From NCBI GenBank assembly GCA_947169685.1, contig CAMVQS010000001.1, forward strand, positions 62,001-126,000: a stretch of 64,000 nucleotides of DNA, written 5' to 3'. Below, one piece after another: positions 6,542 to 64,000 of the stretch. The stretch is from an uncultured Prevotella sp. Lineage in GTDB: Bacteria; Bacteroidota; Bacteroidia; Bacteroidales; Bacteroidaceae. The position numbers and the translations under genes were made by a program. Within the stretch, counting starts at the first letter, position 1, and every line of letters begins with the position of its first letter. The notes under the pieces are model-generated. The model did not search any database. It worked only from the letters and a program-made list of their open reading frames with translations, and had not been told where the DNA came from.

Positions 6542-6546
6542 AATAT

Positions 6547-40699: not shown

Positions 40700-43600
40700 T
40701 TAGCTTTTTCGTTGGCTATGCTCGCGCATATAGTCACGTGGTGACAGACCGTAGAATCGTTTAAAGATGGTGGAGAATGATGCGGAATTATTGAATCCAC
40801 AGGCATACATCACCTCGGTAATATTCATGTTTTGGTTCGCCAACAGATGCGCAGCTTGTTTCAGTCGGATGTTACGGATAAAGTCATGAGGTGTCTGGCC
40901 TGTAAGCTCCTTCATTTTTCGATGCAGGTGAACACGGCTGATACCAACTTCGTCGGCAATGCCATCGACGCTGAGGTCAGAGTTGCTCAGATTCTTGTTG
41001 ATGACTGTCATCACACGTTCTAACAGCTTATCGTCAGGTGACTTAAGTTGTACGTCTTCCACTTGCTCCTCTAGTTGGTCGTTGCGGCCGAACTTCAGTT
41101 TCAGCATACGGTGTGTATGGATGAGGTTAATGATGGTGCGGCGAAGGATGTCCATATTGAATGGTTTGACAATATAGGCATCGGCGCCAGTCTCCAGACC
41201 TTCTAACTGATCCTCATCACGGTTTTTGGCTGTTAGCAAGATAACAGGAATATGACTTGTTCCTGAGTTTGCTTTAACCTTCGAACAGAGGGTCTTACCA
41301 TCCATCTCAGGCATCATAATGTCAGAGATAATCAAATCAGGATGACGCTTCAGCACTTCCGTCAGTCCTTCTCGGCCGTTGCTGCATCTGGTTATGTCGT
41401 AGTCAGCAGAGAGCGTCGTTGTAAGATAGTCAAGAATTTCTTGGTCATCCTCGACAATAACAAGATGTTGACGACGGCTGGTCTTCTGGGGTGCTTCCGT
41501 CTCAGGTGTCTCTGTCACGGTTTCTTCTTCCATCAGATTTGCATTATGTACAGGTTCCTGCTGTTCCACAATCATTTCTTCTGGTTTCAGATGTGCGTTT
41601 CCTAACGGGATGGTAACCACGAATGTACATCCTTTGTCGTCATTATTACGGGCTTCAATCGTTCCGTGATGCAATTCTACCAGTGAACGGGTCAGGTCAA
41701 GACCAATGCCCGTACCAACGTTACGATCGTTTGCTGTTGAAGGGCTTTGATAGAATCGCTCGAAGATTCGTTCCAGTTTGTCGGAAGGTATGCCTTCTCC
41801 ATTGTCACGGATGGAGATTGTTGCGTGATGATCAGTCTTCGCAATACTGATACGGATTTCGCCACCGGCAGGTGTGAACTTAAATGCATTAGAGAGAAGG
41901 TTTACGATTACCTTGTCAAAATTGCCGCGATCAATCCATACAGGAAGTTCCTCCATGTCATGCTCAAAGTGGAATTGTACGTTCTTTGCCTGCGCTTGCT
42001 GGGCAAAGAGGGTATATATATCACTCACGAAACCAACGAGGTCTGTTTCGCACATGCGCATTTGCATCTGTCCTTTGTCAATTTTCCGCAAGTCCATCAT
42101 CTGGTTGATGAGTCCCAGAATACGCTCGGCATTGCGACGAATCGTCTCATAAGTACTGCGACGCTGTGGGTCATCATCTTGTTTGATAAGTGAGAGCAGT
42201 GGAGAAACGATGAGCGTCATAGGTGTACGTATCTCGTGGCTGATATTCATGAAGAAACGCAGTTTGGCGTCGGCCATTTCCTCCGCGTGAATATGTTCTT
42301 GCAGTCGCAGGTGGTCCTGCTCTTTACGGTGTCGGTAATTCAGGTAGAACCATCCGGCAGCTAATAATCCTAATATATAAATAATGTACGCGAGCGTGGA
42401 GCGATACCACGGGGCGTGAATGACAACCTCGAAGCAACGTTCTGGCGTTTGAACTCCATTGCGTTCTGCTTTTACACAGAAGCGATACGTGCCAGGTGGC
42501 ATGTGTGTCAGGGTAATTTCGTTGACGCCAGGTTGTAGGCGGGAGAATGTTTCGCCATTGATACTATATAGATAGGTGATATGTTCGGGATTGTCGAATG
42601 TCAGTGTTGAAAACTGTATGGCAAATGTGTTGTCGTGGTAGTCCAACTCGAAACGATTGGCTGCAATAATTGTAGTATCACAAATCTGATAGCTACCAGA
42701 CATGCTCCTACTGTTAATGGATTCACGATTTAAGATAAAGGATACCAAACTGACTTTTGCGTCCCACTTAACCTGTTTGATGCGTTCTGGATGGAACCAT
42801 GTGATGCCGCCGACACCACCAAAGAGCAGTATTTCTCCTGCACCTAAGTCGATAGTCCATGATGCACCATCACTGAATTCGTTGGATTGTAATCCGTTGT
42901 CAACAAAGAAACTGTGCTTCTGACCAGTCTTTGGGTCGTAACTGCATAAACCGTGGTCTGTCGAAACCCAGAGACATCCATTCCTTTCTTGTTCAATGGA
43001 GGCAATGCCGTTGTCGGCCAATCCCTGTTCCATGTCATAGTGCTGGAATTGTTTACTATGCAGGTCATAGCTGTATAGTCCGTCGTTGGTTCCAATCCAT
43101 AATAGTCCAGCGTATTCCTTGACAATACGGCATGGCGTACCGTAGTTCAGACAGTTTTTGCCAAATACAGTTGTCCAACTTTCCTTGTTAATATCCAGAC
43201 AGCATGTTCCCATAGTGGTTGCCACATAGACACGCTTTTCGTCTGGCGAAAGCGACATCTTTGAGATATAGTCGTTAGTAATACTGTTCATCTCCGGATG
43301 GTCAGGGGCGTTTTCTTTCATGGTATAGGCCCTTTTTAGTTGTAGGTTGCTGAGGTCTATGCGTAACAGGCCTTGTCCCATGGTTGCTACCCAGAGGTCA
43401 CCCTGACGGGAGGATTTGATGGCAAAAGCACTTGAATATTGGTATTGCGGATACTTGTGGTAGGCATTACCGTTGGCGTCAATGTATCCAAATCCCTCGG
43501 ACCAGGAACCCACCCAGATACGTCCATCGTTGTCCTCTGCCATGCTCATTACGGTAGAAGGGACACCCTCTGTGTAGTGTTTGATAAGCTTCTGATGAGA

Positions 43601-44707
43601 TCCAAGGCAATAAATACCGTCCTTGTCTGTTCCTACCCAGCAACGTCCCTTGCTGTCAATGATTGTGCTAATGACACAAGCTTGACCAATCACATTGCGT
43701 GAGCCGAGCTTGTAGCCCATGTATTCAAAACCCGACTCTTTGCCAGGCTGCATGAAGACGCCTTTCTGGAGCATTCCTAACCAGATGTTTCCACTGTCGT
43801 CTTCTACAATAGAGTAAATCTTACTTCTGCTTAAGTCAACTTCTTGGCTGAAGTAGGGGTTGTCGATGATTTCCTCCGTCCGCGGGTTATAAATGGCTAA
43901 GCCTTGGCCGTCGCAGCCTATCATGATACGGCCATCGCGGAGACAATACAGTGCAGATATATGTTTATTGGAAGTCACGTCAAGGTGCTGGAATTCTCCT
44001 TTGTTTCCTTTGCGAACAAAAAGTCCATTCATGGAAGTGCCTACATACAGGTTGCCCATCTTGTCTTCACAAAGCCTGCGGAGAGTGCCAATCTCTTCTA
44101 GAGAAGTAAAAAAGCTGCGGGTGGTTTTCCCGTTATATTCTATCAGACCTTTTCCGTCGGTAATCATCCACACATTTCCTTTATTGTCTTCCAACAGGTC
44201 TTGGATGGTATGAATATCTTTCAAGGGGCCACCAATCTGGTGGGCATGGCCTTGGTCGCTAATCAGCAGCAGTCCGTGTCCAGACGTACCGGCCATGACC
44301 TCATTGTTCTTTCTAAGCAGAAAGCATGTTACATAGCAGGATACGGCATGGTTGTTCAGGTCTTTTACCTCAATGTTGGTAAAATGGCTGCCATCAAAGG
44401 CTTGTAGGGCTCCATACATACCAAGATAGAACAAACCGTTGCGGTCCTGGGTGATACAATTGACGTAATTGCTCGCCATGCCGTTGTTCACATGGTTCTC
44501 TTTCTTGATAAACAACGTTTTATAACCGTCATATTTGTTCAATCCATTTCGCGTGGCAGCCCAGATAAAACCGTCGCGATCTTGAAAGACTTGGCTAGTG
44601 TAACTGCTTGATAATTGGTTGTCAGCATCGAATAGCTTACCCATTTGAGCATTTATACTCTGATAGGTAAAAATAGTCAGTAAAAAGAGTAGAACTTTAC
44701 GCTTCAT
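40700..44707 (-). CDS. hybrid two-component system regulator (HTCS): Reg_prop/Y_Y_Y sensor, histidine kinase, receiver, AraC HTH
   Basis: NISHEIRTPMTLIVSPL; IVEDDQEILDYL...ISDIMMPEMDG; C-terminal AraC GFNNSASFSTIFKRFYGLSPRDY; divergent from SusC. Confidence 0.95.
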   Translation of the reverse strand: MKRKVLLFLLTIFTYQSINAQMGKLFDADNQLSSSYTSQVFQDRDGFIWAATRNGLNKYDGYKTLFIKKENHVNNGMASNYVNCITQDRNGLFYLGMYGALQAFDGSHFTNIEVKDLNNHAVSCYVTCFLLRKNNEVMAGTSGHGLLLISDQGHAHQIGGPLKDIHTIQDLLEDNKGNVWMITDGKGLIEYNGKTTRSFFTSLEEIGTLRRLCEDKMGNLYVGTSMNGLFVRKGNKGEFQHLDVTSNKHISALYCLRDGRIMIGCDGQGLAIYNPRTEEIIDNPYFSQEVDLSRSKIYSIVEDDSGNIWLGMLQKGVFMQPGKESGFEYMGYKLGSRNVIGQACVISTIIDSKGRCWVGTDKDGIYCLGSHQKLIKHYTEGVPSTVMSMAEDNDGRIWVGSWSEGFGYIDANGNAYHKYPQYQYSSAFAIKSSRQGDLWVATMGQGLLRIDLSNLQLKRAYTMKENAPDHPEMNSITNDYISKMSLSPDEKRVYVATTMGTCCLDINKESWTTVFGKNCLNYGTPCRIVKEYAGLLWIGTNDGLYSYDLHSKQFQHYDMEQGLADNGIASIEQERNGCLWVSTDHGLCSYDPKTGQKHSFFVDNGLQSNEFSDGASWTIDLGAGEILLFGGVGGITWFHPERIKQVKWDAKVSLVSFILNRESINSRSMSGSYQICDTTIIAANRFELDYHDNTFAIQFSTLTFDNPEHITYLYSINGETFSRLQPGVNEITLTHMPPGTYRFCVKAERNGVQTPERCFEVVIHAPWYRSTLAYIIYILGLLAAGWFYLNYRHRKEQDHLRLQEHIHAEEMADAKLRFFMNISHEIRTPMTLIVSPLLSLIKQDDDPQRRSTYETIRRNAERILGLINQMMDLRKIDKGQMQMRMCETDLVGFVSDIYTLFAQQAQAKNVQFHFEHDMEELPVWIDRGNFDKVIVNLLSNAFKFTPAGGEIRISIAKTDHHATISIRDNGEGIPSDKLERIFERFYQSPSTANDRNVGTGIGLDLTRSLVELHHGTIEARNNDDKGCTFVVTIPLGNAHLKPEEMIVEQQEPVHNANLMEEETVTETPETEAPQKTSRRQHLVIVEDDQEILDYLTTTLSADYDITRCSNGREGLTEVLKRHPDLIISDIMMPEMDGKTLCSKVKANSGTSHIPVILLTAKNRDEDQLEGLETGADAYIVKPFNMDILRRTIINLIHTHRMLKLKFGRNDQLEEQVEDVQLKSPDDKLLERVMTVINKNLSNSDLSVDGIADEVGISRVHLHRKMKELTGQTPHDFIRNIRLKQAAHLLANQNMNITEVMYACGFNNSASFSTIFKRFYGLSPRDYMREHSQRKS

Positions 44708-45229: not shown

Positions 45230-48200
45230 ATGAAAAATCTAAAGCAGTTGATTAGACAGACCATTCCCGCGATTCTGATGCTCTTTGCATTCAGCACCAT
45301 GCTGCATGCACAAGAGGGTATCACCGTCAAAGGAACGGTTGTCGACTCTAGTGGAGAACCGTTAATCGGTGCCACGGTCGCTGTGAAGGGAAAACCTTCA
45401 GTGGTTACAGTTACAGACATTGACGGTAACTTCACTTTGGCGAAGGTCCCCTCACAGTCTTCTACGCTTGTCTTCTCCTACGTTGGTATGAGTTCCAAGG
45501 AGGTGAAGGTGGGCAATCAGCGTCACTTCAACATTACGCTGGCAGAAGACGCCATGATTGAAGAGGTCGTTGTTGTCGGTTACGGTCAGCAGAGGAAAGC
45601 CTCTGTTGTCGGTGCGATTACCCAGACCACGGGTGAGGTGCTTGAGCGTGCCGCAGGTATTGGTAGTGTAGGTGCAGCCCTCACGGGTAACCTGCCAGGT
45701 GTAGCAACTATCGCTTCTACCGGTCGCCCCGGTGAGGAAGATCCCCGAATCTATATTCGTGGTGCAGCAGCTTGGGGTGGTGTAGATTGCCAGCCGCTGA
45801 TCCTCGTCGATGGTGTTAAGCGTGATATCCAGTCCGTTGATGTCACATCAGTAGCAACGATCTCGGTGTTAAAGGACGCTTCTGCTACTGCCGTTTACGG
45901 TGTGGAAGGTGCTAACGGTGTCGTACTGATTACCACCAAGCGTGGTCAGGAAGGTAAGGCAAGAATTGATGTAGGTTTCAACGCCACTTTGAAAGCTGTG
46001 TCCAAGCTTCCGCGTAAGTATGACTCTTATGATGGTTACATGTTGCGTAACGAGGCCATTGAGCACGAACTTGCCATTGGCGGTTCTGCTGCCTGGGAGT
46101 TCTATCGTCCGCAGACTTTCATCAATCTCTTCCGCAATCAGGATTATACCGTTAAGCCAAACTTCTCTGCTGACGGTACCTATCTTGGTGACTACAGTCA
46201 GGCAGAGCGCTATGCAAACATTGATTGGCAGGATGAAATGTTCAAACAATTTGCTTTGTCTTATAATACGAACCTCAACATCTCTGGTGGTTCGCAGTTG
46301 GTAAAGTATTTCGTGGCATTCGACTTCCAGAACGAAGGTGATATGACCAAGTTATGGGATAACCGCCAGGGTTATGAAGGTGGTTATACCTATAATCGTT
46401 TGAATGTACGTTCAAATCTGGACTTCCAGATTACGAAGACCACACAGTTCAAGGTCAATCTGGCAGGTTCTAATGCACAGAAGAAATCTCCGCGTTTCTA
46501 TTATAATAATGATGGTGAGTTCTTCCAGCAGCAGAAATGGGCCGGTGCATACGGCATGGCGCCCAACCTCTTCCCCGTCCAGTTCTCTGATGGTGCTTGG
46601 GGTTACTATCCTTTGACATCAAACATCGAAAACTCTCCACAGAGTGTGGCAACGTCAGGTTATGAACTGAATACGATTACACGTATCTTTACTGACTTTG
46701 CGCTCGAACAGAAGCTCGACTTCATTACAAAGGGTCTTGTTGCACGCGGAACCATCTCTTGGGATAACAACTTCACTGAGGGTTCACGTGGTATCAGCGA
46801 CCAGCATGAAGTAAAGAGAGCATATATTCTTCCTGAGGATGGTCAGTTAATTCGTGCTAAGGACATTGACACCACAACAGGTTTCGACTTCTATGAGAGT
46901 CGTGACTGGAGAACAGAAGCTGGTAGCATCAGTTCTACAAGCCGTGCTACGGAAATGTCTCTTCAGCTCTACTGGGCTCGTCAGTTCGGTGACCACAACC
47001 TATCTTTGATGGGTAACTGGAAGCGTCGTACCACGCAATACGGTTCAGACCTTGAGAACCGCCGTGAGGACTGGGTGTTCCGTACTACCTATGACTATAA
47101 GGGAAAGTATTTTGCAGAGTTCAACGGTGCCTACAACGGTTCGCAGAAATTCTCTCCAGACAACCGCTTCGTGTTCTTCTGCTCAGGAGCTATCGGTTGG
47201 ATGATGTCAGAAGAGCCCTTCATGAAGAAGCTGAAGGACAAGGGAATTATTGACATGTTCAAGCTTCGTGCTTCTCTCGGTGAAATCGGTGATGATAATG
47301 CTGGTGAACGCTGGGCATATCTGACACGCTGGGAAGTAACGAACAACGGTAATGGTTTTAGAATGGCTTTGGACGGTTCTAACAGTCCATTCGTTGGATA
47401 TAAGGAAGCTGCTGTTGCTGTTCCTGACCTTCGTTGGGCAACCGTATCAAAAAAGAACATCGGTTTCGACTATGCATTCCTCCATGGTATGTTCGCAGGT
47501 AGCTTCGACTGGTTCCGTGATGATCGTTATGATATCTTTATTTCCGGTGGTGAGCGTTCCGTTCCTTCTTTCTATGGTGCTGCCAAGACCCCTGATATCA
47601 ATAAGGGTAAGATGAAGAACTACGGTTTTGAGTTTGATATTCGCTTCAATAAGGTGCTGCATAATGGTATGCGTTTCTGGGCAAACGCTAACTATACATA
47701 CGCGCATAATGAGATTATCTTAAAGGATGACCCGGCGCTGATTCCAAGCTACCGCAAGAAGGAAGGTTATTCACAGGGTCAATACACCTCATTCATTGAT
47801 AATGGCTTTATTGGCACCTACGATGAGCTCTACAGCTCGCCAGAGCGTCAGAGCAACGACGCACAGGTGCTCATCGGTGACCATTACATTGTTGACTTCA
47901 ATGGTGATGGTATCGTTGACGAGACAAACGATATTGCTCCTTATGGTTACACCGGTAACCCCGAGCACACCTATAATGCCACCATCGGCTGGGAGTGGAA
48001 AGGCTGGAGTATGTTCGCACAGTTCTATGGTGTAACAGGTGTTACACGTGATGTTGGCCTCTCCTCTTTTAATAATAAGTTATTGACTGTATATGATAAC
48101 GGTCAGTGGTGGAATCCCATTGATAATTATGGTGCGGTAGTCGTACCACGCTTTACCACTCAGGTTTCCTATAACGACGGTACACAGTACCTCTTCGACG

Positions 48201-48424
48201 GTTCCTATTTCCGTCTGAAGAACGTGGAAGTCGCCTACACATGGACAAAGGGTTGGATCAAGAAGCTTGGCTTTACAAGCCTGAAGATTTACCTCAATGG
48301 TAACAATCTTTTGCTGATTACTAAGATGCCTGACGACCGTGAGAGTAACTTCGGATATAGCGGTGGCGGCGGTGCTTACCCGACCGTAAGACGTTATAAC
48401 TTTGGCATTAAGCTTAACATTTAA
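45230..48424 (+). CDS. xusA: SusC/RagA family TonB-linked outer membrane protein (XusA-like)
   Basis: Carboxypeptidase-like N-domain GTVVDSSGEPLIGATVAVKG, IEEVVVVGYGQQRKASVVGA, DASATAVYGVEGANGVVLITTKRG. Confidence 0.93.
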   Translation: MKNLKQLIRQTIPAILMLFAFSTMLHAQEGITVKGTVVDSSGEPLIGATVAVKGKPSVVTVTDIDGNFTLAKVPSQSSTLVFSYVGMSSKEVKVGNQRHFNITLAEDAMIEEVVVVGYGQQRKASVVGAITQTTGEVLERAAGIGSVGAALTGNLPGVATIASTGRPGEEDPRIYIRGAAAWGGVDCQPLILVDGVKRDIQSVDVTSVATISVLKDASATAVYGVEGANGVVLITTKRGQEGKARIDVGFNATLKAVSKLPRKYDSYDGYMLRNEAIEHELAIGGSAAWEFYRPQTFINLFRNQDYTVKPNFSADGTYLGDYSQAERYANIDWQDEMFKQFALSYNTNLNISGGSQLVKYFVAFDFQNEGDMTKLWDNRQGYEGGYTYNRLNVRSNLDFQITKTTQFKVNLAGSNAQKKSPRFYYNNDGEFFQQQKWAGAYGMAPNLFPVQFSDGAWGYYPLTSNIENSPQSVATSGYELNTITRIFTDFALEQKLDFITKGLVARGTISWDNNFTEGSRGISDQHEVKRAYILPEDGQLIRAKDIDTTTGFDFYESRDWRTEAGSISSTSRATEMSLQLYWARQFGDHNLSLMGNWKRRTTQYGSDLENRREDWVFRTTYDYKGKYFAEFNGAYNGSQKFSPDNRFVFFCSGAIGWMMSEEPFMKKLKDKGIIDMFKLRASLGEIGDDNAGERWAYLTRWEVTNNGNGFRMALDGSNSPFVGYKEAAVAVPDLRWATVSKKNIGFDYAFLHGMFAGSFDWFRDDRYDIFISGGERSVPSFYGAAKTPDINKGKMKNYGFEFDIRFNKVLHNGMRFWANANYTYAHNEIILKDDPALIPSYRKKEGYSQGQYTSFIDNGFIGTYDELYSSPERQSNDAQVLIGDHYIVDFNGDGIVDETNDIAPYGYTGNPEHTYNATIGWEWKGWSMFAQFYGVTGVTRDVGLSSFNNKLLTVYDNGQWWNPIDNYGAVVVPRFTTQVSYNDGTQYLFDGSYFRLKNVEVAYTWTKGWIKKLGFTSLKIYLNGNNLLLITKMPDDRESNFGYSGGGGAYPTVRRYNFGIKLNI

Positions 48425-48437
48425 TTGTATATCTATT

Positions 48438-50498
48438 ATGAAATATATAAATAATATCAAATCCCTGTTGTGCGGTTCGCTGCTTTTGTTAGCTGGCGGT
48501 GCTTCCTTTACGTCCTGCACCGACTGGCTTGACAAGGACCCTGAGTCTATCGTGGCTGAGGATGAAGCATTCAAGAACTTCCGCAATTTCCAGGGATATA
48601 TTGAGGAAATTTATGATTGTATTCCCGATAAGCAGAAAGTCAACTACTGTACTTCCTGGAACTGGGGTGATGACGCGCTTCACAACCCCGAAGGTTATGC
48701 ACACATGGACCATCAGGTCGATCTCGGTAACTATCGTAATATCTGGAAAAACAGTCAACAATGGCTGAACGGCTCTGGTGCTGACGGGTCTTGGGGAGCC
48801 AAGTATTCCCTTTGGAAGGGTGCTTGGTACTGCATCCGTAAGTGTAACAAGGGTATTGCGAATATCAAGTCACTCGTCGGAACGGATGAAGAGCGCAACC
48901 TGTTGCTCGGACAGATGTATTTCTTCCGTGCATGGTGGCATTTTGAGCTGATGTGCTACTTCGGTGGTCTGCCCTATGTTGACGAGGCTTTCCCTGCTGA
49001 TGCCATCCCCGAGTTGCCCCGCCTTTCTTTCCAGGAATGTGCAGACCGCTGTGCAGAGGATTTCGAGAGAGCATACGACCTTCTTCCTTGGGATTGGGAT
49101 GAGACGCTTGCCGGTATGCAGACTTCAGGAAAGAACGACCTGCGTATCGATAAGTTCATGGCTCTTTGCTACCTTGGCAAGGTCTATCTCTGGGCAGGTT
49201 CTCCCCTCATGAAGGAGTTTGAGAAGACCAAGAATGGTGGTGTAGCCCAGCTGTTAGGTGCCAGTTCCAATGGTAAGACCTACGACTATGACATTGATTA
49301 TTGTAAGAAGGCTGCTGAGACTTTCGGCAAGGCGCTCGACATGGTTGCCAAAGGATCTGTTAAGTACAAGCTTGTGGGCTTTAAGTATTCTGATATCTAC
49401 AACCATACCATGGATGAGAAAGCCGATAACTGTTACTCAGACATTTTCTATACCATCAAGCAGAGTTGGAAGATGCCAGGTTCTACCGAGGCTATCTTCC
49501 GCGGTGCATGTCCGGGTGTAAACAGTGCTCCCTGGAACTGTGCCAAGCTCTTTGGTCCTAAGGTTGACGGCCTCGTGGAGCACGACAACATCATTCATCA
49601 CCCCACAGCCAACCTCGTTGACCAGTACGGTATGGCTAACGGACAGCCCATCTATCTGGTTCGTAATGGCCAGTATGTGCTGAACGAGGCTTCCGGTTGG
49701 GATCCTGAGCATCCTTTCCAGAATCGTGACCCACGTTTCTATCACGACATCGTGTTCGACGGTTTCCACTATGTCATCAACAGAGAAGGTATGACTGAAG
49801 CTCAGAAGTCTCATAACCTTGATTACTGTTCTCTTTACACAGGTGGTGCCATGCGTGAGATTGACCATGGTAGTGCCTCTGGCTATTTCATCCAGAAGCT
49901 GATTCCCCACCAGTGTAACATAGGAGATAAGTGGTACGACTGGGATTACGCCATCCAGACCTATATCCCTTACATGCGTCTTGCTGATGTCTATCTGATG
50001 TATGCAGAGGCCCGGACAGCCATTGCAACGAGCGTGGCCGATATCAAGGAAAGACCTACGTATTGCCCGACGCTGTCTGCTGTGGAGGCTATCAACGTGC
50101 TTCGCGACCGTGTCAATACCGACGATTATCCCATGGAGCATGTACAGCCCAACCTCATGGATACTAGGGAGCACTTTATGGATGAAGTACGCCGTGAGCG
50201 TACCGTGGAGCTTTCTTTTGAAGGTTTCCGCTGGTGTGACCTGCAGCGTTGGCTGCTCCTGACGGAGCCTCCTTATACGGTGAAATACTCTCATGAGTTC
50301 GAACGCCTGGAAAAGGATGATTGGTACTATAATAGTAAGACTTTCGAGCCGCAGCACGATCCGAAGGATGCTAGGGTTGGTAATTTCCATAAGGCAGACA
50401 TTATTACCCGTCGTTTGGAATCAAAACATTACTGGTTCCCGCTTCCTGACGCTGATACCTATCTTTATGAAGGATTCCCCCAGAATCCGGGTTGGTAA
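48438..50498 (+). CDS. xusB: SusD/RagB family glycan-binding lipoprotein (XusB-like)
   Basis: Lipobox SFTSCTDWLDKDPES; RAWWHFELMCYFGGLPYVDE; C-terminal FRWCDLQRW. Confidence 0.93.
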   Translation: MKYINNIKSLLCGSLLLLAGGASFTSCTDWLDKDPESIVAEDEAFKNFRNFQGYIEEIYDCIPDKQKVNYCTSWNWGDDALHNPEGYAHMDHQVDLGNYRNIWKNSQQWLNGSGADGSWGAKYSLWKGAWYCIRKCNKGIANIKSLVGTDEERNLLLGQMYFFRAWWHFELMCYFGGLPYVDEAFPADAIPELPRLSFQECADRCAEDFERAYDLLPWDWDETLAGMQTSGKNDLRIDKFMALCYLGKVYLWAGSPLMKEFEKTKNGGVAQLLGASSNGKTYDYDIDYCKKAAETFGKALDMVAKGSVKYKLVGFKYSDIYNHTMDEKADNCYSDIFYTIKQSWKMPGSTEAIFRGACPGVNSAPWNCAKLFGPKVDGLVEHDNIIHHPTANLVDQYGMANGQPIYLVRNGQYVLNEASGWDPEHPFQNRDPRFYHDIVFDGFHYVINREGMTEAQKSHNLDYCSLYTGGAMREIDHGSASGYFIQKLIPHQCNIGDKWYDWDYAIQTYIPYMRLADVYLMYAEARTAIATSVADIKERPTYCPTLSAVEAINVLRDRVNTDDYPMEHVQPNLMDTREHFMDEVRRERTVELSFEGFRWCDLQRWLLLTEPPYTVKYSHEFERLEKDDWYYNSKTFEPQHDPKDARVGNFHKADIITRRLESKHYWFPLPDADTYLYEGFPQNPGW

Positions 50499-50504
50499 TC
50501 GGTT

Positions 50505-50537
50505 AATTGATAATTGATAATTGATAATTAGATTATG
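50505..50537. repeat. 7-bp repeat AATTGAT leading to a start codon
   Basis: AATTGAT x3 then AATTAGATTATG; ATG of the second SusC at 50535. Confidence 0.85.
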
Positions 50538-53513
50538 AAACATATAAAAAGAAACGTATTTCTCTTTGCCATGCTTGCAGCATCGCCACTGACAATCAGT
50601 GCACAGACCGCTGATGATGCTGATTCTGCCGTGGTGAAAAAGAAAGTCCATGTTGCTTTCCGTGACAAGGATGCCGATCATCTTCTCGGAGGTGTTTCCT
50701 ATGTTGATATGGAAGAGTTGCAGAAGAAGGATTATACCATGGGCAGTCTCGAAGACATGCTCGGACTTGTCAGTGGATGGAACGGCAACAACCTTTGGGG
50801 AATGGACAATGAACGTCTGGATAATAATGACAACAGCAATCTCCCGCTTGTTATCATTGATGGCGTAAAGCGTCCGTCCAACAACGTGCTACCCTCTGAG
50901 ATTGAACAGATTACCTTCCTGAAGGGTGCACAGGCTGTTGTGCTCTATGGTGCCAAGGGTGCCAAGGGTGCCATCTTGATTACTACTAAGCGTGGCAAGA
51001 TAGATGGTCTTCAGATTACAGCCAACGCCAACACGGGCTGGCACTTCGCCAAGGAGTTTCCAGAGTATCTGGGCTCTGCAGAGTACATGACACTCTATAA
51101 TGAAGCATGTCTTAATGATCATCTTTCCACTGGAGCAAAGTATTCCCAGCAGGACATCTACAACCATGCTTCTGGCTTGAATCCTTATCGTTATCCCAAC
51201 GTCAACTATTATTCAGATGAGTATATCCGCAAGGCCTATAACCGTTCTGAAGCAACGTTGGAGATTCAGGGTGGTGGTACACGTGCTCACTTCTACACGA
51301 ACATCAACTACTACCGCAGTGAAGACCTCCTGAACTTCGGTCCCGCAAAGGATAACTATACCGATCGTTTCAGTGTACGTGGTAACGTCGATCTCGTTGT
51401 CAACAAGGTCATCAAGGGCTTTGCCAATGCCAGTGCTACCTTCTACAATGAGAACAAGAACAAGGGTAACTTCTGGGGTGAGGCAGCTACCATGCGTCCT
51501 AACTTCCCAGAGAACGCAGCACCGCTGATTCCTATCGATATGGTCGATCCCAATGCTTCCAAGGCTCTTGCTATCCTTGGTAAGTCGCTCAACCTGCTCG
51601 ATGGAAAGTATTTCCCCGGTGGTACGAAAGCCAATCAGACCAATGCCATTGCAGACTGCTACTTCGGTGGTAAGACAACAGGCGTTAGCCGTCAGTTCCA
51701 GTTCGATGCCGGCATCATCTACGATATGAACAAGTTTGTGAATGGCTTGTCGTTCAAGACGTTGTTCTCCATCGACTATGCTGCCAGCTATAATCTTTCA
51801 TACAACAACACGTATGCGGTATTTATCCCGACATGGAGTAACTACAACTCCGTAGATGCTATTGTGGCTCTTACTCAGCAGAACGATGAGTTGGTCACTG
51901 GTCACATGTCTCAGTCAGATAGTAAGTATCGTCAGACCATCAGTTGGAATGGTCATTTCGACTACGACCATACCTTTGCTGGTAAGCATCACGTAACAGG
52001 TATGTTGCTGGCCAATATGTACACAACCACAGCCAGTGGTACATACCATCGCTATGCTAATGCCAACTTAGGTCTGCAGGCAGGTTATGACTATATGGGT
52101 CGTTACTTTGCAGAGATGTCGTTGGCAGGTGTTCATTCTGCTCGTCTTGCAGAAGGTCATCGTGAGGCCATCTCGCCTTCTCTCACCATTGGTTGGAATA
52201 TCGCCAAGGAGTCTTTCATGCAGGGTAGCTTCGTTGACGACCTGCTGATCAGTGCATCCTACAGCAATCTGAACGAGGATATTGATGTATATATGACAAG
52301 AGATGGTAAAGAAGTTTACTATTATCTGTATGATGCCCTATGGTCAACGGCCGGTAGCGGCTTTTCGTGGAACGAGGGTTCTACTTCTAACCTGACTTAT
52401 TCTACAACGGGTAACAACCCCGAGCTAGACTTCATCCATCGCAAGGAATTTTCGGTCAGCCTTCGTGGTTCATTCTTCAAGAAACTGATTAGTGCTGAGC
52501 TCACCTTCTTCAATACGGATATGGACGGCTATATCATCCAGAACCCGACCACGTTCCCCTCACATCTGGCAGGTGGTCTTTCTGGTAGTTCCTTCAAGCC
52601 GACCATCAACAACAATATTCAGAACCGCAAGGGCCTTGACTTCAGCATCACTGCTCAGAAGCAGTTTGGTAAGGTTCACGCACAGCTTGGAGTTGTCGGT
52701 ACCTATCTCAAGACAGAATGGAAAAAGTTCGATGAAATCATAGATGAAAACGCACCCGAGAAATATACAGCAGGACGTGCTCTTGATGTTATTTGGGGTT
52801 ACAAATGTCAGGGATTCTACACGGCAAACGACTTCGACTACAACTCAGAGACAGGTACATACAAGCTCAAGGAAGGTCTCCCGACTTCAAAGCTGAGTGG
52901 TAGCAGTAACCTTCAGCCTGGTGACCTGAAGTACGAGGACGTTAATGGCGACGGTTTCATCGATAAAAAAGACTTGGTTGACCTTGGCAGATCTGGTACC
53001 GTTACTTATCTGGACCCCAATGGTAATCCTTACACCAATGCTTTAGGTAGCATTGGTACTCCTTGGAACATTGGTGTGAACCTTACGCTCAAGTATAAAA
53101 ACTGGACACTCTTCGTGCTGGGCAATGGTAACTTTGGTGGCAAGGGCATGATGAACGGCAGTTACTATTTCATGAGTGGTGACGCCAAGTACTCGGTCAA
53201 TGCCCGTAACCGTTGGACACCCGAGACTGCTACTACGGCTACACACCCGCGTCTGACCACATTGGCAACGGCTAACGGCGAGGCATCCACCTTCTGGCTT
53301 TACAGCACCGACCGTTTCAACCTTCGTAAGGTACAGCTGACCTACGACTTCCCGGAGGAATGGTTCGACGGAAAGATTGTCAAGGCGCTCTCAATTTATC
53401 TAAATGGAAACGACCTCCTCACCTTCTCGAAGCATCGTAAGATGATGGAGACCAGCGTAGGCTGGGCACCCCAGACTCGTTTCTATAATCTCGGTGTTAA
53501 GGTAACCCTCTAA
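50535..53513 (+). CDS. xusC: SusC/RagA family TonB-linked outer membrane protein (XusC-like)
   Basis: GAQAVVLYGAKGAKGAILITTKRG plug motif; C-terminal YNLGVKVTL. Confidence 0.92.
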   Translation: MKHIKRNVFLFAMLAASPLTISAQTADDADSAVVKKKVHVAFRDKDADHLLGGVSYVDMEELQKKDYTMGSLEDMLGLVSGWNGNNLWGMDNERLDNNDNSNLPLVIIDGVKRPSNNVLPSEIEQITFLKGAQAVVLYGAKGAKGAILITTKRGKIDGLQITANANTGWHFAKEFPEYLGSAEYMTLYNEACLNDHLSTGAKYSQQDIYNHASGLNPYRYPNVNYYSDEYIRKAYNRSEATLEIQGGGTRAHFYTNINYYRSEDLLNFGPAKDNYTDRFSVRGNVDLVVNKVIKGFANASATFYNENKNKGNFWGEAATMRPNFPENAAPLIPIDMVDPNASKALAILGKSLNLLDGKYFPGGTKANQTNAIADCYFGGKTTGVSRQFQFDAGIIYDMNKFVNGLSFKTLFSIDYAASYNLSYNNTYAVFIPTWSNYNSVDAIVALTQQNDELVTGHMSQSDSKYRQTISWNGHFDYDHTFAGKHHVTGMLLANMYTTTASGTYHRYANANLGLQAGYDYMGRYFAEMSLAGVHSARLAEGHREAISPSLTIGWNIAKESFMQGSFVDDLLISASYSNLNEDIDVYMTRDGKEVYYYLYDALWSTAGSGFSWNEGSTSNLTYSTTGNNPELDFIHRKEFSVSLRGSFFKKLISAELTFFNTDMDGYIIQNPTTFPSHLAGGLSGSSFKPTINNNIQNRKGLDFSITAQKQFGKVHAQLGVVGTYLKTEWKKFDEIIDENAPEKYTAGRALDVIWGYKCQGFYTANDFDYNSETGTYKLKEGLPTSKLSGSSNLQPGDLKYEDVNGDGFIDKKDLVDLGRSGTVTYLDPNGNPYTNALGSIGTPWNIGVNLTLKYKNWTLFVLGNGNFGGKGMMNGSYYFMSGDAKYSVNARNRWTPETATTATHPRLTTLATANGEASTFWLYSTDRFNLRKVQLTYDFPEEWFDGKIVKALSIYLNGNDLLTFSKHRKMMETSVGWAPQTRFYNLGVKVTL

Positions 53514-53516
53514 TAG

Positions 53517-53544
53517 AATTGACAATTGATAATTGAAAATTATG
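53517..53544. repeat. 7-bp repeat AATTGAN ending in a start codon
   Basis: AATTGAC AATTGAT AATTGAA AATTATG; ATG at 53542. Confidence 0.85.
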
Positions 53545-55371
53545 AAGACAAGAAATATTATATTGTATTTTATCGGTCTCCTCGCCTTCTGCTCATGCCA
53601 AGATATGTTTGAGCCGGCAGACGAAAACAACCGACAGGAGGATGCCATGTACGAGGAGTCAAAGTATGCAGACGGACTGCTGATGTACGGCTATGGTCGT
53701 CTTCCCTATCTGACGACCACCCAGACGGACATTGCTACGGATGACGCTGTGACCAACAACCAAACCAATAGTTATAAGCTCATGGCGGAGGGAGCATGGC
53801 AATCAGATAACAACCCGATGTCTCAGTGGGACAACTGTAAGGATGGTATCCAGTATATCAACCTCTTTCTCACAAAGGTGGAGAAGGTGAAGTGGGCTCC
53901 CAGTGCCGTTTCTAAGCAGCAGATGTTCATTGACCGTCTGAAGGGCGAAGCCTTCGGTCTCCGTGCCATCCTCTATTACTATTTGCTACAAGCACATGGT
54001 GGCTATGCAGACGATGGCGTGCTCTATGGTGTGCCCTTGCTGACAACCCCCGAGGACGGTAGTTCCGACTTCAACCAGCCGCGTGCCACGTTTGCTGAGT
54101 GTGTTCAACAGATCTTTGCCGACTGCGACAGTGCTATGGCACTGCTTCCATACGATTATGAGAATATCTCCACTGATGCGGAGATACCTGCCAAGTATAA
54201 GGAGCTTGGTGCTTATCTGACCAGTTACAACCTCGTGTTCGGTAGCAAGGCTTCTGGTCTCCTGTCTGCCAAGGTGGCTGAAGCAACGAAGGCACAGGTC
54301 GCCCTGCTCGCAGCAAGTCCTGCCTTCCGCGACCAGAGCGGTGTCACTTCTGCTGAGGCTGCAACGCTTTGTGCCAATGTTCTCAAGCGCATTGGCGGAA
54401 TGGAAGGTTTCGACAAGACGGGTAATAAGGACTGGTTCCAGTCTGCTTTTAAATCAATGATTGAGACAGTGGCCAATCCTGAAATCCTCTGGCGTGAAGA
54501 CCGTCAGAAGAATGCCTCTCAGGAGCGCGAGAACTTCCCGCCGACGCTGTATGGCAACGGCCGTGTCAATCCGTCGCAGAACCTCGTTGACGCTTTCCCT
54601 ATGCGTAGCGGTCGTCCTATCACGGATCCTGCTTCTGGTTACAACCCCAATGACCCATACGCCAATCGTGACCCGCGTCTTGCTGATAATATTCTCTATA
54701 ATGGCAGAACATTACGAAAGAGCGAAATCATCACAGGTACCTATCCTAAAATAAATGATAAGGGTATAGCCGAGTATGACGATAACTTAAACTATCGTAG
54801 CACTTCAACGCGTACGGGCTATTATCTGCTGAAACTGCTTCGCGACGATGTCAGCCCGCTGTCAAGTTCAATCATCGAGCAGCAGCACATCTATCCGCGT
54901 ATCCGTTACACGGAAATCTTCTTGGCATATGCTGAAGCAGCCAACGATGCCTGGGGACCTAAGGCTGACCCGATGGGTGTAGGTTTCACGGCTTACGACG
55001 TCATCAAGGCCATTCGCGAGCGTGCAGGACTTGCAACTGATGAGATTGGAATGCCACTTCCAGAAGGCGATACTTATCTTGAGGAGTGTGCTAATGATCA
55101 GGCTAAGATGACAACGCTGATCCGTAACGAGCGTCGTCTTGAACTCTGCTTCGAGAACAAACGTTTCTGGGATCTCCGTCGTTGGATGATGCCGCTCAAT
55201 GAAACGGTGAAGGGTATGAAGATTGACCGCAACGAAGAAACCGGTGAACTGACTTATACCGTCATTAACGTTGAGGAGCGTAAATACGATAACTCTTATC
55301 AGTGCTACGGCCCCATTCCAAAGGGCGAAGTGCTCAAATGGAGTAACCTCAAGCAAAATAAGGGATGGTAA
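53542..55371 (+). CDS. xusD: SusD/RagB family glycan-binding lipoprotein (XusD-like)
   Basis: Lipobox AFCSCQDMFEP; GLRAILYYYLLQAHGGYADDGVLYGVPL; LCFENKRFWDLRRW. Confidence 0.92.
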   Translation: MKTRNIILYFIGLLAFCSCQDMFEPADENNRQEDAMYEESKYADGLLMYGYGRLPYLTTTQTDIATDDAVTNNQTNSYKLMAEGAWQSDNNPMSQWDNCKDGIQYINLFLTKVEKVKWAPSAVSKQQMFIDRLKGEAFGLRAILYYYLLQAHGGYADDGVLYGVPLLTTPEDGSSDFNQPRATFAECVQQIFADCDSAMALLPYDYENISTDAEIPAKYKELGAYLTSYNLVFGSKASGLLSAKVAEATKAQVALLAASPAFRDQSGVTSAEAATLCANVLKRIGGMEGFDKTGNKDWFQSAFKSMIETVANPEILWREDRQKNASQERENFPPTLYGNGRVNPSQNLVDAFPMRSGRPITDPASGYNPNDPYANRDPRLADNILYNGRTLRKSEIITGTYPKINDKGIAEYDDNLNYRSTSTRTGYYLLKLLRDDVSPLSSSIIEQQHIYPRIRYTEIFLAYAEAANDAWGPKADPMGVGFTAYDVIKAIRERAGLATDEIGMPLPEGDTYLEECANDQAKMTTLIRNERRLELCFENKRFWDLRRWMMPLNETVKGMKIDRNEETGELTYTVINVEERKYDNSYQCYGPIPKGEVLKWSNLKQNKGW

Positions 55372-55373
55372 TC

Positions 55374-55401
55374 AATTGAAAATTGAAAATTGAAAATTAT
55401 G
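55374..55401. repeat. 7-bp repeat AATTGAA ending in a start codon
   Basis: AATTGAA x3 AATTATG; ATG at 55399. Confidence 0.85.
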
Positions 55402-56520
55402 AAACTGAAGAAATATATATATGGAATAGCCTTGGGAGTATTTTCGCTCACCTTTGCATCATGTTATAATGCAGACAGAGAGTTCCCTGACTATGAAGGA
55501 GGCACAACGGCCTACTTCGCATATCAGTTCCCGGTGCGTACGCTCATACTTGGTAACGACATCTACGACAACACACTTGATAACGAGCATAAGTGTCGTA
55601 TCTGGTCAACCATGGGCGGAGCATACGGTGGACGTGACGCATACGTAGATATTGTTGTTGATGAGACACTCTGCGATAATCTCTACTTTATGGATGTAAA
55701 CGGAAATGCAGCAGAACCTGTACGTCCGATGCCATCAAACTATTATACGCTGCTTTCCAGCAAGATTCCTTACAATGGCAATCAGCGCGGCTATGTAGAA
55801 GTACAGTTTACTGATGAGTTTTTTGCCAATGAACATGCCATTGAGAACTACTATGTCATTCCTCTGCGCATGATGAACCCAACAGGCATTGACCATATTC
55901 TCACGGGTACACCGCGCGAAGGTCTCGATCCCTCTCGTACGAATACAGAGGATTGGGATGTGCTGGCCAAGGACTATGTGCTTTACTGTGTGAAGTATAT
56001 CAACCCGTGGCATGCAAAGTATATCCGCCGTGGTGTTGACAAAGTGACGGAAAAAGGAACTACTACGGAAGTAATCCGTAAGGACTTCTCACTGGTTAAT
56101 ACTGATACCGAGCGTTACACGGAGAACCCTGTGAATGCGAACGATGAGGTATGCAAGATTACCACCAAGAACATGACACAGGCCATCTTCCCAGTATCGT
56201 TCAAGACTTCTGGCGCTTCCATCTCTTGTAACCTGATTCTTACCTTCAATGGTAATCAGTGTACGGTATCTACCGACGATGAGAATGTCACAGCCACCGG
56301 CTCCGGTGAATTCATCGCCAAGGGAACCGAGCGTGCAGAATACAAGGACTACCAGTGGGGAAGCATGAACGGACAGCCTGTCCAGCGTGACATCCTCCGT
56401 CTGGCTTACGAAGTAAACTTCGGTGACAAGAATATTCAGGTATCTACTGCCGACACGCTGGTCGTTCAGACACGTGAGTCAAACCAGAAGGACTTCTTCT
56501 CAACCAAATACATTAAATAA
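55399..56520 (+). CDS. xusE: XusE-like surface lipoprotein (DUF1735/DUF4361-type)
   Basis: Lipobox FASCYNADREFPDYEGGTTAYFAYQFPVRTL typical of DUF1735 proteins; sits directly after a SusC/SusD pair. Confidence 0.8.
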   Translation: MKLKKYIYGIALGVFSLTFASCYNADREFPDYEGGTTAYFAYQFPVRTLILGNDIYDNTLDNEHKCRIWSTMGGAYGGRDAYVDIVVDETLCDNLYFMDVNGNAAEPVRPMPSNYYTLLSSKIPYNGNQRGYVEVQFTDEFFANEHAIENYYVIPLRMMNPTGIDHILTGTPREGLDPSRTNTEDWDVLAKDYVLYCVKYINPWHAKYIRRGVDKVTEKGTTTEVIRKDFSLVNTDTERYTENPVNANDEVCKITTKNMTQAIFPVSFKTSGASISCNLILTFNGNQCTVSTDDENVTATGSGEFIAKGTERAEYKDYQWGSMNGQPVQRDILRLAYEVNFGDKNIQVSTADTLVVQTRESNQKDFFSTKYIK

Positions 56521-56538: not shown

Positions 56539-58209
56539 ATGAATAAGATTTTCAGAAACTTATCTCTGATGTTGGTTGCAGGGGCGCTTGCTGTTTCCTG
56601 TGCCGACTATAATGTGACAGACGATTTCACGGCAGAGCCCGATCCCTCTGTTGTCGTGCCTTACAAGGACTTGGCTCCAGTCAAATCATATATTGACAGA
56701 GAAAAAAATCCGAACTTTGTGCTTGGCGCTCAGCTCAAGGTGGCTGACTTCAACAAGCAGGAACTGGCTCATGCTGCGGCAGTGACCAACTTCGATGATG
56801 TTACCTTCGGTACTACCCTGATGGCTGGTTCCATTGTTAACGCCAAGGGTGTGATGAACTTCCTCGACATGAAGGACCTGCTTGACCATGTGGAGGAAAT
56901 AGATGGTACGGTATTCGGCAGTCCGCTCTTTGCCAATGCTAATCAGGCTGACGATTGGCTGGCCACGCTGACCGCTCCTATCGAGATTGTTGTCGAGTAT
57001 GTAGAGGGTAAAGTTGTTAACTACAACGACTCAACTTCGTTTCATGGTACTATAGATAATGCCAAGGGTAAAGCCTCTATTGTCAACTATGATAATCAGA
57101 AAGTGCTTCAGATTGGTTCTACCTCTAATGTTCGTATCATTGAAGGCTTTGAGGTAGATCCGCTTGCTAAATATACCACTACGTTCTGGGCAAGATCAGA
57201 CAAAGAACTTACTTTCACAATTACCTTCTCAGGTCAACAAGTCGAAGGAAACGGTACTAATGGAAAGTGGGTTCTTAAACCTGGTAAATGGACAAAGTTC
57301 GTGATTGAGAGCCAGAGTGCACCTGACGCTACGGAGGGTTATCTGAGAATAGAGAACGGTAAGAATGGTACCATGAATATTCAGAAGGTGCAGGTAGGTT
57401 ACTACCCTGACAACCATCGCCCGCAGACAGATCAAGAGAAGAAAGACACTATTAACTATGCTGTCAAGGCATGGTGTGAAGGTGTGATGAAGATCAACGA
57501 AGGTCGTATCACCTCCTTCGACCTCATTGACGAGCCCATCGATACAAAGTCAGTATTGGAGAACGGCATGTTTGACCTCAAGCACGCTACTACAGACAAG
57601 ATCTTCTGGCAAGACATTCTCGGCAGTGAGCAGTATGCTCCTGTTGTGGCAAGAGAAGCCCGCAAGGCATTCGAAGAGAATGGCGGTGAGGCGAATGCGC
57701 TGAAGCTCTTTATCAGTGAGAAAGGTCTTGAAGACCAGAAGGTATATGAGAGCCTGAAATACTGGATTGGCATCTGGGATGCAAACGGTGCCAAGATTGA
57801 TGGTATCAATGCCAAGTTGAATCTCAGCTATAGCGAGGATGCTGCCACGCAGGAGGCTAACAAGGCAACACTGAACACGCTGCTTGACAACCTTGCTGCT
57901 ACTGGCAAACTCATCCGTCTCTCTAACTTCGACATTACCTATAAGGATGCTACGGGTGCCAACGTGACAGCAAAAGACATCAAAAGTGCTCAGCGCCAGC
58001 AGTTAGCTGACTACTATGCTTACGTCATCAAGGCTTATATGAGCAAGATTCCAAGCGACAAGCAGGCTGGTATCTGTAAGGGTAATATGCTTGACACGAA
58101 TGATCCTGTAGGCCTCTGGGCTTATGAAACGATTGATGCCAAGGGTACCAAGGACTGGGTGCGCACTGCTACTTACAAGGCATTCTGTGATGCGCTTGCT
58201 GGACAGTAA
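56539..58209 (+). CDS. GH10-fold lipoprotein with inserted CBM-like domain, predicted non-catalytic (surface glycan-binding)
   Basis: Lipobox VSCADYN; GH10 scaffold readable (FVLGAQLKV..., ITSFDLIDEPI, KIDGINAKLNLS, LIRLSNFDITY) but with catalytic residues replaced. Confidence 0.85.
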   Translation: MNKIFRNLSLMLVAGALAVSCADYNVTDDFTAEPDPSVVVPYKDLAPVKSYIDREKNPNFVLGAQLKVADFNKQELAHAAAVTNFDDVTFGTTLMAGSIVNAKGVMNFLDMKDLLDHVEEIDGTVFGSPLFANANQADDWLATLTAPIEIVVEYVEGKVVNYNDSTSFHGTIDNAKGKASIVNYDNQKVLQIGSTSNVRIIEGFEVDPLAKYTTTFWARSDKELTFTITFSGQQVEGNGTNGKWVLKPGKWTKFVIESQSAPDATEGYLRIENGKNGTMNIQKVQVGYYPDNHRPQTDQEKKDTINYAVKAWCEGVMKINEGRITSFDLIDEPIDTKSVLENGMFDLKHATTDKIFWQDILGSEQYAPVVAREARKAFEENGGEANALKLFISEKGLEDQKVYESLKYWIGIWDANGAKIDGINAKLNLSYSEDAATQEANKATLNTLLDNLAATGKLIRLSNFDITYKDATGANVTAKDIKSAQRQQLADYYAYVIKAYMSKIPSDKQAGICKGNMLDTNDPVGLWAYETIDAKGTKDWVRTATYKAFCDALAGQ

Positions 58210-58331: not shown

Positions 58332-60644
58332 ATGAAGAAATTATTTACACTTCTTGTTCTCTTGACATGTTTCTTGGGAGCAAAGGCAGAGTGGGTACAA
58401 GATTACAGTATCGACTACTCTACGAAGAACAATTTCCCATTCTTCGTCATGGGTTATGTACCCGAGTGGGTTGATGGTGTCATGACCGACTATGGTGCAG
58501 ACTACAGGTATGCGACTCAGGCAGATCTTGACGGTGACGGTGACGCTAAATGGAAAGATGGAGAGTCTTCTGTTGGTACCGCTATGGCTGGTTCTACAGA
58601 GTATCAAAAGGTAACAGGTGCTGGCCCATATTGGCACCAGTATTTCATTGCTGATGGTGTTCCTATGGAACTTGATGGTACTTATACCATTAAGGCAATG
58701 GTTAAGTCTTCTGCTGCAGTCACCGCAAATCTTCAGTTTGGAAACTGGGGAAAACTCAAAGAGACACAGGTTACTATCCCTCAAAGTAATGATTTCCAGG
58801 AAGTAGAATGGGAAGTTACGGGTTGCTTAAATGCAGGTAATGGCTTTATCTGTATCCAGCCTGGTACCTCTACTGCTACTATCGAATGGAAGTCGCTGAA
58901 GGTTTTCCACAATCAGAAGGCACAGCGCCCGACAGTATGGCAGCAGTGGCTCACCAACGATGGTAATTCTATCATACCTGATGTAGCACATACTAACAAG
59001 TATGTTGGTGATGCAGAAACTGCATGGCCGGCATGGGCACTTGAGACAACCGATGGCATCAACGCCAACTGGAGAGGTGAACAACCTAACTTAATTTGTG
59101 CATGGGCTTTGACCATGGGTAGGAACTTTGATGATCAGTGCCCCGCTGAGGTTAGTAAAGATAGCTATCGCGCTCGTCCTTTCCCTGCTGACATCGAGTT
59201 AGAGCCAGGAACTACCAACCACGTATTCGCTGTTCATGTAACGCAGATTGATGTTATTGATGCTCCAGAACCCGATGTGAACTCTGTCGCATGGTCTAAC
59301 CAGTTCTGGATTGAGTCTCCTAAAGGTTGGAAAGAAGGCGAACAGGTTAAGATTAAGTTCCGCTATAAGGCAGAGCATGCATGTAAGGTAGGTACTCAGA
59401 TCCACAAGCAGCGTCCTTCTGACTATCTCCATTGGCAAGCTGTTGATGATGTTTCGTTCACTACGGAGTGGCAGGAATTCGAGAAGGTTGTTACCTTCAG
59501 CTCTGCTCAAGCAGGCGGTTTCTCTCTGGCATTCAACCTGTGCAGTGATGCGGACAATGGCCGCACTCCTAATGTATTCTACTTCGACGACCTTTCTTGG
59601 GAGACAATGAAGCTTGACGAGGGCTTCTTCGTTGCAGGTTCTAACACTACTACAGGTCTCCAATATGACTTTGACAATGCCACCCAGTTCGAGGAACATG
59701 CATATGATGATGACTACGATTACGTAGCTACTATTGGTGAGAAGGACGCTTATGTCAATGAAATTATGATTTCTACCGTTCGCGGTAACGATACTCAATT
59801 CAAGAGTAATACGCTGAAGCCCAAATCCGTTATCACTTCAAGCGATCCTGATAACTGGATTGAATATACTGCAGCAAGTCTTGCTAAAGTGACACTTCCT
59901 GCTGCTGGTATTTGGAGGGTTTACATTGATACTCATTACACATCTATGGCATTCGAGCAGATTGAAGGTGATGAAATTGTAGAGAAGGAACCCGTTGATA
60001 TCGTTACTAACCCAACCGAGAATGTTATTAACGGACAGGAAAGACAGCCGACAGCTGCTGAGCAGCCCGCAGATGAGGAGGCAGGAACCCCGGCAGGTAC
60101 TGGCCAGCCTTGGGATAACCAGTTCTTCATTGTTGCTAACCGTGCGCTTGAGAAGGGCGAAGTTACGGTTGTCAAGTTCAAGTATAAGGCTTCTCGTGAG
60201 GCAAAGTCTTCTACACAGTGCCACGGTGAACCAGGTGCCTACAAGCACTGGGCAGCTATCGGTGATGTAAACTTCACGACTGAATGGCAGGACTTTGAGA
60301 CAGAACTTACTGTTGCTAATGAGGCAGACGGCATGAAGTCTATTGCCTTCAACTTGGCTGAAATCAAGGATGCTTGCATTTATGAGATTAAGGACGTTCA
60401 GTGGTATCTGAAAGACGAGACTCTTGATGAGGGTAAGACTTGGGAGAACCTGATTGACGCAACTGGTGGTGCAAACTTCCTCAAGAAGGAAGGTGCAGGT
60501 AATGCTATTGAACCCACAGGTATCAACGGTGTCATTTATACCACAACTGGTTCTGACGTAATCTATAACCTCTCTGGCCAGCGTGTGTCTAAGGACTACA
60601 AAGGCGTTGTGATTAAGAACGGTCGCAAGGTCGTGATTAAGTAA
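58332..60644 (+). CDS. secreted multi-CBM (CBM4/22-like modules) protein with C-terminal sorting-like tail
   Basis: Two homologous modules (AWSNQFWIESPKGWKEGEQVKIKFRYKAEH...; PWDNQFFIVANRALEKGEVTVVKFKYKASRE...); tail VIYNLSGQRVSKDYKGVVIKNGRKVVIK. Confidence 0.8.
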   Translation: MKKLFTLLVLLTCFLGAKAEWVQDYSIDYSTKNNFPFFVMGYVPEWVDGVMTDYGADYRYATQADLDGDGDAKWKDGESSVGTAMAGSTEYQKVTGAGPYWHQYFIADGVPMELDGTYTIKAMVKSSAAVTANLQFGNWGKLKETQVTIPQSNDFQEVEWEVTGCLNAGNGFICIQPGTSTATIEWKSLKVFHNQKAQRPTVWQQWLTNDGNSIIPDVAHTNKYVGDAETAWPAWALETTDGINANWRGEQPNLICAWALTMGRNFDDQCPAEVSKDSYRARPFPADIELEPGTTNHVFAVHVTQIDVIDAPEPDVNSVAWSNQFWIESPKGWKEGEQVKIKFRYKAEHACKVGTQIHKQRPSDYLHWQAVDDVSFTTEWQEFEKVVTFSSAQAGGFSLAFNLCSDADNGRTPNVFYFDDLSWETMKLDEGFFVAGSNTTTGLQYDFDNATQFEEHAYDDDYDYVATIGEKDAYVNEIMISTVRGNDTQFKSNTLKPKSVITSSDPDNWIEYTAASLAKVTLPAAGIWRVYIDTHYTSMAFEQIEGDEIVEKEPVDIVTNPTENVINGQERQPTAAEQPADEEAGTPAGTGQPWDNQFFIVANRALEKGEVTVVKFKYKASREAKSSTQCHGEPGAYKHWAAIGDVNFTTEWQDFETELTVANEADGMKSIAFNLAEIKDACIYEIKDVQWYLKDETLDEGKTWENLIDATGGANFLKKEGAGNAIEPTGINGVIYTTTGSDVIYNLSGQRVSKDYKGVVIKNGRKVVIK

Positions 60645-61737: not shown

Positions 61738-64000
<2,263 letters not shown>

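Follow-up and report, generated by a model that had tools for sequence, protein, structure and literature searches.

A GH10-fold lipoprotein with a replaced catalytic site occupies the xylanase slot of the Xus operon in rumen Prevotella and probably serves xylan binding

In the Xus layout, the gene that follows xusE normally encodes Xyn10C, a GH10 xylanase in which one or more carbohydrate-binding modules (CBMs) are inserted between β3 and α3 (PMC7848910). Xyn10C-type proteins such as BACOVA_04390, BiXyn10A and Pm25 are lipoproteins and active endo-xylanases carrying both catalytic Glu residues (PMC4491172, PMC7848910). BACOVA_03431, encoded in PUL-XylL of B. ovatus, is a surface-located GH10-like protein that is inactive, with its nucleophile lost and its −2 subsite disrupted, and that binds xylans (PMC4491172). 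It was the sole inactive GH10 protein known in 2015 (Rogowski et al. 2015, PMC4491172), and a search of open-licence papers for others returned that report as the only relevant one.

We analysed a 64,000-nucleotide stretch of DNA from an uncultured Prevotella (the window; coordinates count from its first letter), in which the gene directly after susC-susD-xusE encodes a lipoprotein with a CBM in its GH10 barrel. This slot and architecture are those of the Xyn10C-type xylanases, but the catalytic site is replaced, and we refer to the protein as pseudo-GH10. It also resembles BACOVA_03431: both are lipoproteins with a GH10 fold and an inserted CBM region, both have lost the nucleophile and the −2 subsite (the features described in PMC4491172), and both are encoded in the slot after a SusC-SusD-DUF5627 series in a xylan PUL. 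BACOVA_03431 is larger (about 750 amino acids with a longer insert, against 556 with one CBM here) and is followed by GH30 and GH98 genes, whereas a CBM protein follows here. Pseudo-GH10 shares with SusE/SusF-type surface glycan-binding proteins (SGBPs) such as BACOVA_04391 (PDB 3ORJ) a presumed role in non-catalytic surface capture of the PUL glycan; those are β-sandwiches, whereas this is an enzyme barrel, and the operon has its own XusE gene as well. Chitin-binding lectins of the GH18 type offer a further parallel of a glycosidase fold turned binding protein, a comparison drawn in PMC4491172, although fold family and ligand differ.

In about 100 loci, and within the limits of their contigs, the genes invariably follow the order SusC-SusD-SusC-SusD-SusE-pseudoGH10-CBM protein. 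Esterase and GH43 genes lie downstream of the operon, and a GH3/GH10-esterase/GH43 cluster lies further upstream on the same contig; together with the regulator and the GH10 genes nearby, this setting fits a xylan PUL. The CBM protein after pseudo-GH10 evolves fast. Its CBMs are related to those inserted in a Bacteroides GH10 (PDB 4mgs and 4qpw, E about 5e-6), and most copies end in YNLAGQRV..YKGIVVKNGKK, a tail also found on the GH10 protein at 61.7 kb.

The initial annotation had stated that the slot after xusE elsewhere holds Xyn10C, which is borne out, and had supposed that the active GH10 was here displaced to 61.7 kb. The protein at that position is a secreted, uninterrupted GH10-Big_7-CBM6/35 protein that has neither an inserted CBM nor a lipobox, and the idea of a displaced Xyn10C was rejected on this difference in architecture.

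Pseudo-GH10 orthologs are present in over a hundred genomes. Within the genus, copies with an identity of about 52% or higher occur in 71 of 399 genomes; one of the 71 is the window's own genome, a metagenome-assembled genome (MAG) with a completeness of 82%. When the GTDB species genomes were scanned, 80 loci were kept, nearly all from ruminant-gut Prevotella MAGs and two from isolates (Prevotella sp. P5-92 and Prevotellaceae bacterium MN60), and more orthologs occur in two related genera. For comparison, 101 distinct orthologs, the most divergent at about 48% identity, were aligned with 76 relatives from Bacteroidales whose catalytic site is intact.

Table 1. The operon, its neighbours and the parts of the pseudo-GH10 gene, in window coordinates.
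Feature	Position	Strand	Remarks
Hybrid two-component regulator, HTCS type (Reg_prop-HisKA-RR-AraC)	40700..44707	-	upstream of and divergent from operon
SusC-like (XusA position)	45230..48424	+	
SusD-like (XusB position)	48402..50498	+	assigned by position and gene order
SusC-like (XusC position)	50535..53513	+	
SusD-like (XusD position)	53533..55371	+	
XusE-like lipoprotein	55390..56520	+	BT_3987-like_N + DUF5627; PDB 3n91 relative
Pseudo-GH10 lipoprotein: GH10 barrel, one inserted CBM, catalytic site replaced	56539..58209	+	556 aa, ATG start
Lipoprotein signal peptide, lipobox LAVSC, Cys21	56539..56601	+	from sequence; Cys21 invariant in 45 orthologs
GH10 barrel part one, residues 42-147	56662..56979	+	
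Met95 at the GH10 −2 subsite Lys position	56821..56823	+	Met in 101/101 orthologs; Lys in 73/73 intact relatives with a residue there
GSPLFAN block: Ser128, Ala132, Asn133 replacing subsite His, Trp, His	56920..56937	+	100, 99 and 100 of 101 orthologs
Inserted CBM, residues 148-290	56980..57408	+	profile match to CBM of intact single-CBM relatives
GH10 barrel part two, residues 291-553	57409..58197	+	Pfam GH10 at 299-503, and alignment
Asp331-Glu332 replacing Asn-Glu (acid/base)	57529..57534	+	codons GAC GAG
Lys426 replacing Gln205; charge-complementary partner of Glu332	57814..57816	+	332/426 pair counts
Asn463 (AAC) replacing the nucleophile Glu	57925..57927	+	Asn 100, Asp 1 of 101 orthologs; Glu in 75/75 intact relatives with a residue there
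Secreted protein with several CBMs	58332..60644	+	follows pseudo-GH10 in every locus checked
Separate GH10-Big_7-CBM6/35 protein, not Xyn10C-type	61738..63855	+	both catalytic Glu (VVNEA, VTEYD)

Pseudo-GH10 belongs to the GH10 family by fold and descent. Specifically, Pfam PF00331 matches it with 48.3 bits (E = 1e-12) against a curated cut-off of 22.1, and the AlphaFold model (pLDDT 88.6, pTM 0.75) has GH10 xylanases as its best PDB matches by fold, with TM values of up to 0.82 on the target. At the sequence level, NCBIfam gave no match for the protein, a PDB sequence search with it alone gave no relative, and a PDB search with an ortholog profile gave weak GH10 matches only (E 0.07). In the model, strands 4 and 7 end at residues 331 and 462, and residues 332 and 463 thus occupy the places of the GH10 acid/base and nucleophile. 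The structure-prediction check proposed in the initial annotation therefore returned a GH10 fold with Glu at the former position and Asn at the latter.

The insertion of a CBM into the barrel was likewise recognized correctly; there is one such module, placed as in Xyn10C and present in 101 of 101 orthologs. Pfam matches it only weakly to CBM_4_9 (E = 0.013, below the curated cut-off), and a PDB search with the module alone gave no solved relative, but profile comparison relates it to the module found in intact enzymes with a single CBM (hhalign probability 97%, E 8.6e-11). Modules of about 50% identity recur elsewhere as C-terminal domains (locus L282, 3756-4205, in a protein of about 1030 amino acids; locus L284, 725-1174), a recurrence that suggests module exchange.

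Residue numbers such as H81 and E236 follow what we take to be the usual GH10 numbering; the assignment itself comes from alignment with the intact relatives. Because nearly all 76 of these hold H, W, H, N-E, Q, H, E and W at the same columns, the site assignment is not an alignment guess. Where an active GH10 has a Glu nucleophile after strand 7, pseudo-GH10 has Asn463, and the orthologs have Asn in all cases except a single Asp. The Asn-Glu motif after strand 4 reads Asp-Glu, and its Glu is gone in 11 orthologs. The His, Trp, Lys and Gln residues of the −1 and −2 subsites are replaced by Ser, Ala, Met and Lys: His81 has become Ser (100/101), Trp85 Ala (99/101), His86 Asn (100/101), Lys48 Met (101/101) and Gln205 Lys or Glu (91 and 9 of 101, respectively). 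Furthermore, His207 is Asn in 83 and Trp266 Gly in 90 of the 101 orthologs, and the Trp-Arg loop after Trp266 is deleted. Gln136 is the only subsite residue kept throughout, of those examined. Replacements this close to invariant, over orthologs of such low identity, are far beyond chance.

These observations agree with the motifs quoted in the initial annotation, all of which are present in the sequence (GSPLFANANQADDWL for the HTLVWH-type block, FDLIDEPI, INAKLN, RLSNFD and KGNMLDTND), and the comparison with syntenic genes reveals that the replacements are common to the 101 orthologs. Its view that essentially all catalytic residues had been lost holds for the nucleophile and the subsites; Glu332 still stands at the acid/base position, as it had itself recorded.

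We consider it likely that pseudo-GH10 is a dead Xyn10C that, without leaving its operon slot, became a non-enzymatic protein of the cell surface and helps to hold xylan. There is good support for regarding it as a non-catalytic surface protein; within this reading, we infer both the loss of all xylanase activity and, from the lipobox and the family, a location on the outer surface. In the proposed course of events, a Xyn10C-type surface GH10 of the Xus operon would have lost catalysis in place, and its descendant would be exported, carry its lipid at Cys21 and, most likely, sit on the surface next to XusE and the two SusC/SusD pairs, helping to retain xylan chains that are then imported or passed to other enzymes at the surface. 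Judged from descent, operon and the BACOVA_03431 precedent, xylan binding is its probable function. Of the non-catalytic binding protein that the initial annotation had proposed, a non-catalytic GH10-fold lipoprotein in the xus slot is retained, surface glycan binding is probable and xylan is the presumed ligand. Several features count against our explanation, among them the divergence of the inserted CBM, the persistence of a Glu at the acid/base position and the destruction of the xylan-gripping subsites.

The −2 and −1 subsites, which grip xylan in GH10 enzymes, are destroyed in pseudo-GH10, and thus its barrel cleft need not bind xylan. The main rival explanation, which we regard as unlikely, is that the protein is a scaffold rather than a binder, filling the enzyme's place as a structural subunit of the SusCD complex (utilisome). 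In levan and dextran systems, a surface enzyme and an SGBP form stoichiometric complexes with SusCD (PMC7618045). A scaffold would suit the loss of the xylan-gripping subsites, the charge pair at the cleft centre described below and the lower conservation of the inserted CBM compared with the barrel (1.41 versus 0.84 bits). However, BACOVA_03431 has also lost its nucleophile and −2 subsite and does bind xylan (PMC4491172), and the complete retention of the CBM among orthologs counts against a scaffold.

In a tree of GH10 cores without the CBM, the window lineage is monophyletic (100/100) and branches from within the intact Xyn10C-type proteins. Of these, L065 is the closest to it, with 36% identity across the second half of the barrel, and the L065 gene occupies the same slot, in a series SusD-SusE-GH10-CBM protein. 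Most likely, therefore, an enzyme once stood in this slot and its catalytic function was lost there. The competing idea of a single loss of catalysis, in an ancestor shared with BACOVA_03431, is already disfavoured and seems quite improbable to us. Both proteins follow a DUF5627 SusE-like gene, and a joint clade with two long-branch members of the BACOVA_03431 type was not rejected at first (AU p = 0.144). Once GH98-linked loci were added, bringing that type to six members, the joint clade was rejected (AU p = 0.006), and the window lineage nests among intact Prevotella enzymes. Under this broad sampling, the window lineage thus appears to have arisen separately from BACOVA_03431 in the same operon slot. 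The residues also differ: the nucleophile position is Asn here and Asp or Gly there, and one BACOVA_03431-type protein (L281) still has Glu. The GH10 protein presumed by gene order to be BACOVA_03431 itself (L279, in a SusC-SusD-DUF5627-GH10-GH30-GH98 neighbourhood as at that gene) is degenerate at the same sites as the window protein but with other residues: its nucleophile position holds Asp and its acid/base position Asn, where the window protein has Asn and Glu, respectively.

Within the BACOVA_03431 type, the L281 protein (7236-9530) combines its nucleophile Glu with a degenerate subsite His/Trp block and is a possible intermediate. In another locus (L277), the gene is split into two frames beside GH30 and GH98 genes (6579-7457 and 7753-8793), possibly by a frameshift or an assembly error.

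Glu332 raises the alternative of a protein that is still an enzyme with a changed mechanism or substrate, acting through this residue and another such as the invariant Glu394; we judge this very improbable. Glu332 is kept in 90 of the 101 orthologs and Glu394 in all of them. Residue 332 is otherwise Lys (8), Arg (1), Asp (1) or Gly (1), and it varies as a charge pair with residue 426, with combinations E/K 90, K/E 8, R/E 1, D/K 1 and G/Q 1. The nine orthologs with Lys or Arg at 332 are deep-branching and form one clade, which indicates one charge swap rather than nine. Because of this swap with the old Gln205 position, and because the Glu is not invariant, Glu332 looks like a residue now engaged in a structural salt bridge with residue 426, and retention of partial catalysis by Glu332 was set aside on the same charge swap. 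Moreover, Glu394 replaces an Asp that is conserved in intact enzymes and thus does not represent a new site, and no carboxylate occupies the nucleophile position after strand 7, save the Asp of one ortholog. Both the 332-426 salt bridge and the lack of a carboxylate pair are judged from sequence and strand positions.

The gene is maintained, as its invariant gene order and its low dN/dS indicate (0.13-0.17 when the window protein is compared with the five relatives closest to it). Median dN/dS values are 0.16 for the barrel and 0.18 for the CBM, and conservation at the eleven former catalytic and subsite columns exceeds that of randomly drawn barrel columns (0.45 versus 0.84 bits), a modest effect given that 852 of 20,000 random draws were as low. 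A decaying pseudogene, which only the loss of catalytic residues would favour, is refuted by the frame open in 101 of 101 orthologs, a dN/dS of about 0.15 and the fixed operon position.

Other Bacteroidales carry further degenerate GH10 proteins in the same slot (L200/L218, L233, L234, L245, L182 and, in part, L084). On the tree, the starred branches require the intact label to change two to three times; as several degenerate rows have long branches, how many separate losses took place is uncertain. Three of these genes lie at 7359-10061 (L233), 6470-9142 (L234) and 6611-8896 (L245) of their loci, the first two directly followed by an intact GH10.

Judged by profile score and not by residue-by-residue reading, an intact-looking Xyn10C-type gene is present in 34 of the 71 pseudo-GH10 genomes; of the 29 near-complete carriers, 13 have one and none was found in 16. 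It lies just downstream of the CBM protein in four loci (L127, L129, L132 and L161, the last from the isolate Prevotella sp. P5-92) and elsewhere in the genome in other relatives. No intact CBM-inserted GH10 was found in the window's 82% complete MAG. We tentatively propose, with slightly less than even confidence, that the slot after xusE is a hotspot at which Xyn10C has repeatedly been converted into a binding protein in Bacteroidales, with one conversion fixed in the rumen Prevotella Xus operon; given that an intact Xyn10C was not found in about half of the near-complete carriers, such a Xus system may serve capture and import, leaving cutting to other enzymes.

One inactive GH10 binder was already known in a human gut Bacteroides, and the lineage described here is a separate one in rumen bacteria. 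It adds a second GH10, of separate evolutionary origin, that has become a presumed binding protein, and it can be compared with intact sister genes from the same slot. Unforeseen by the initial annotation, pseudo-GH10 is an old lineage of over a hundred genomes and not a peculiarity of the window's genome. For the human gut, Xyn10C has been put forward as a functional marker of the breakdown of xylan (PMC7848910), and its structure and PUL place have been called invariable (PMC7815789). With a dead copy in the Xyn10C slot of so widespread a lineage, gene order or a GH10 match taken by itself gives too high an estimate of xylanase capacity, above all for genomes from the ruminant gut.
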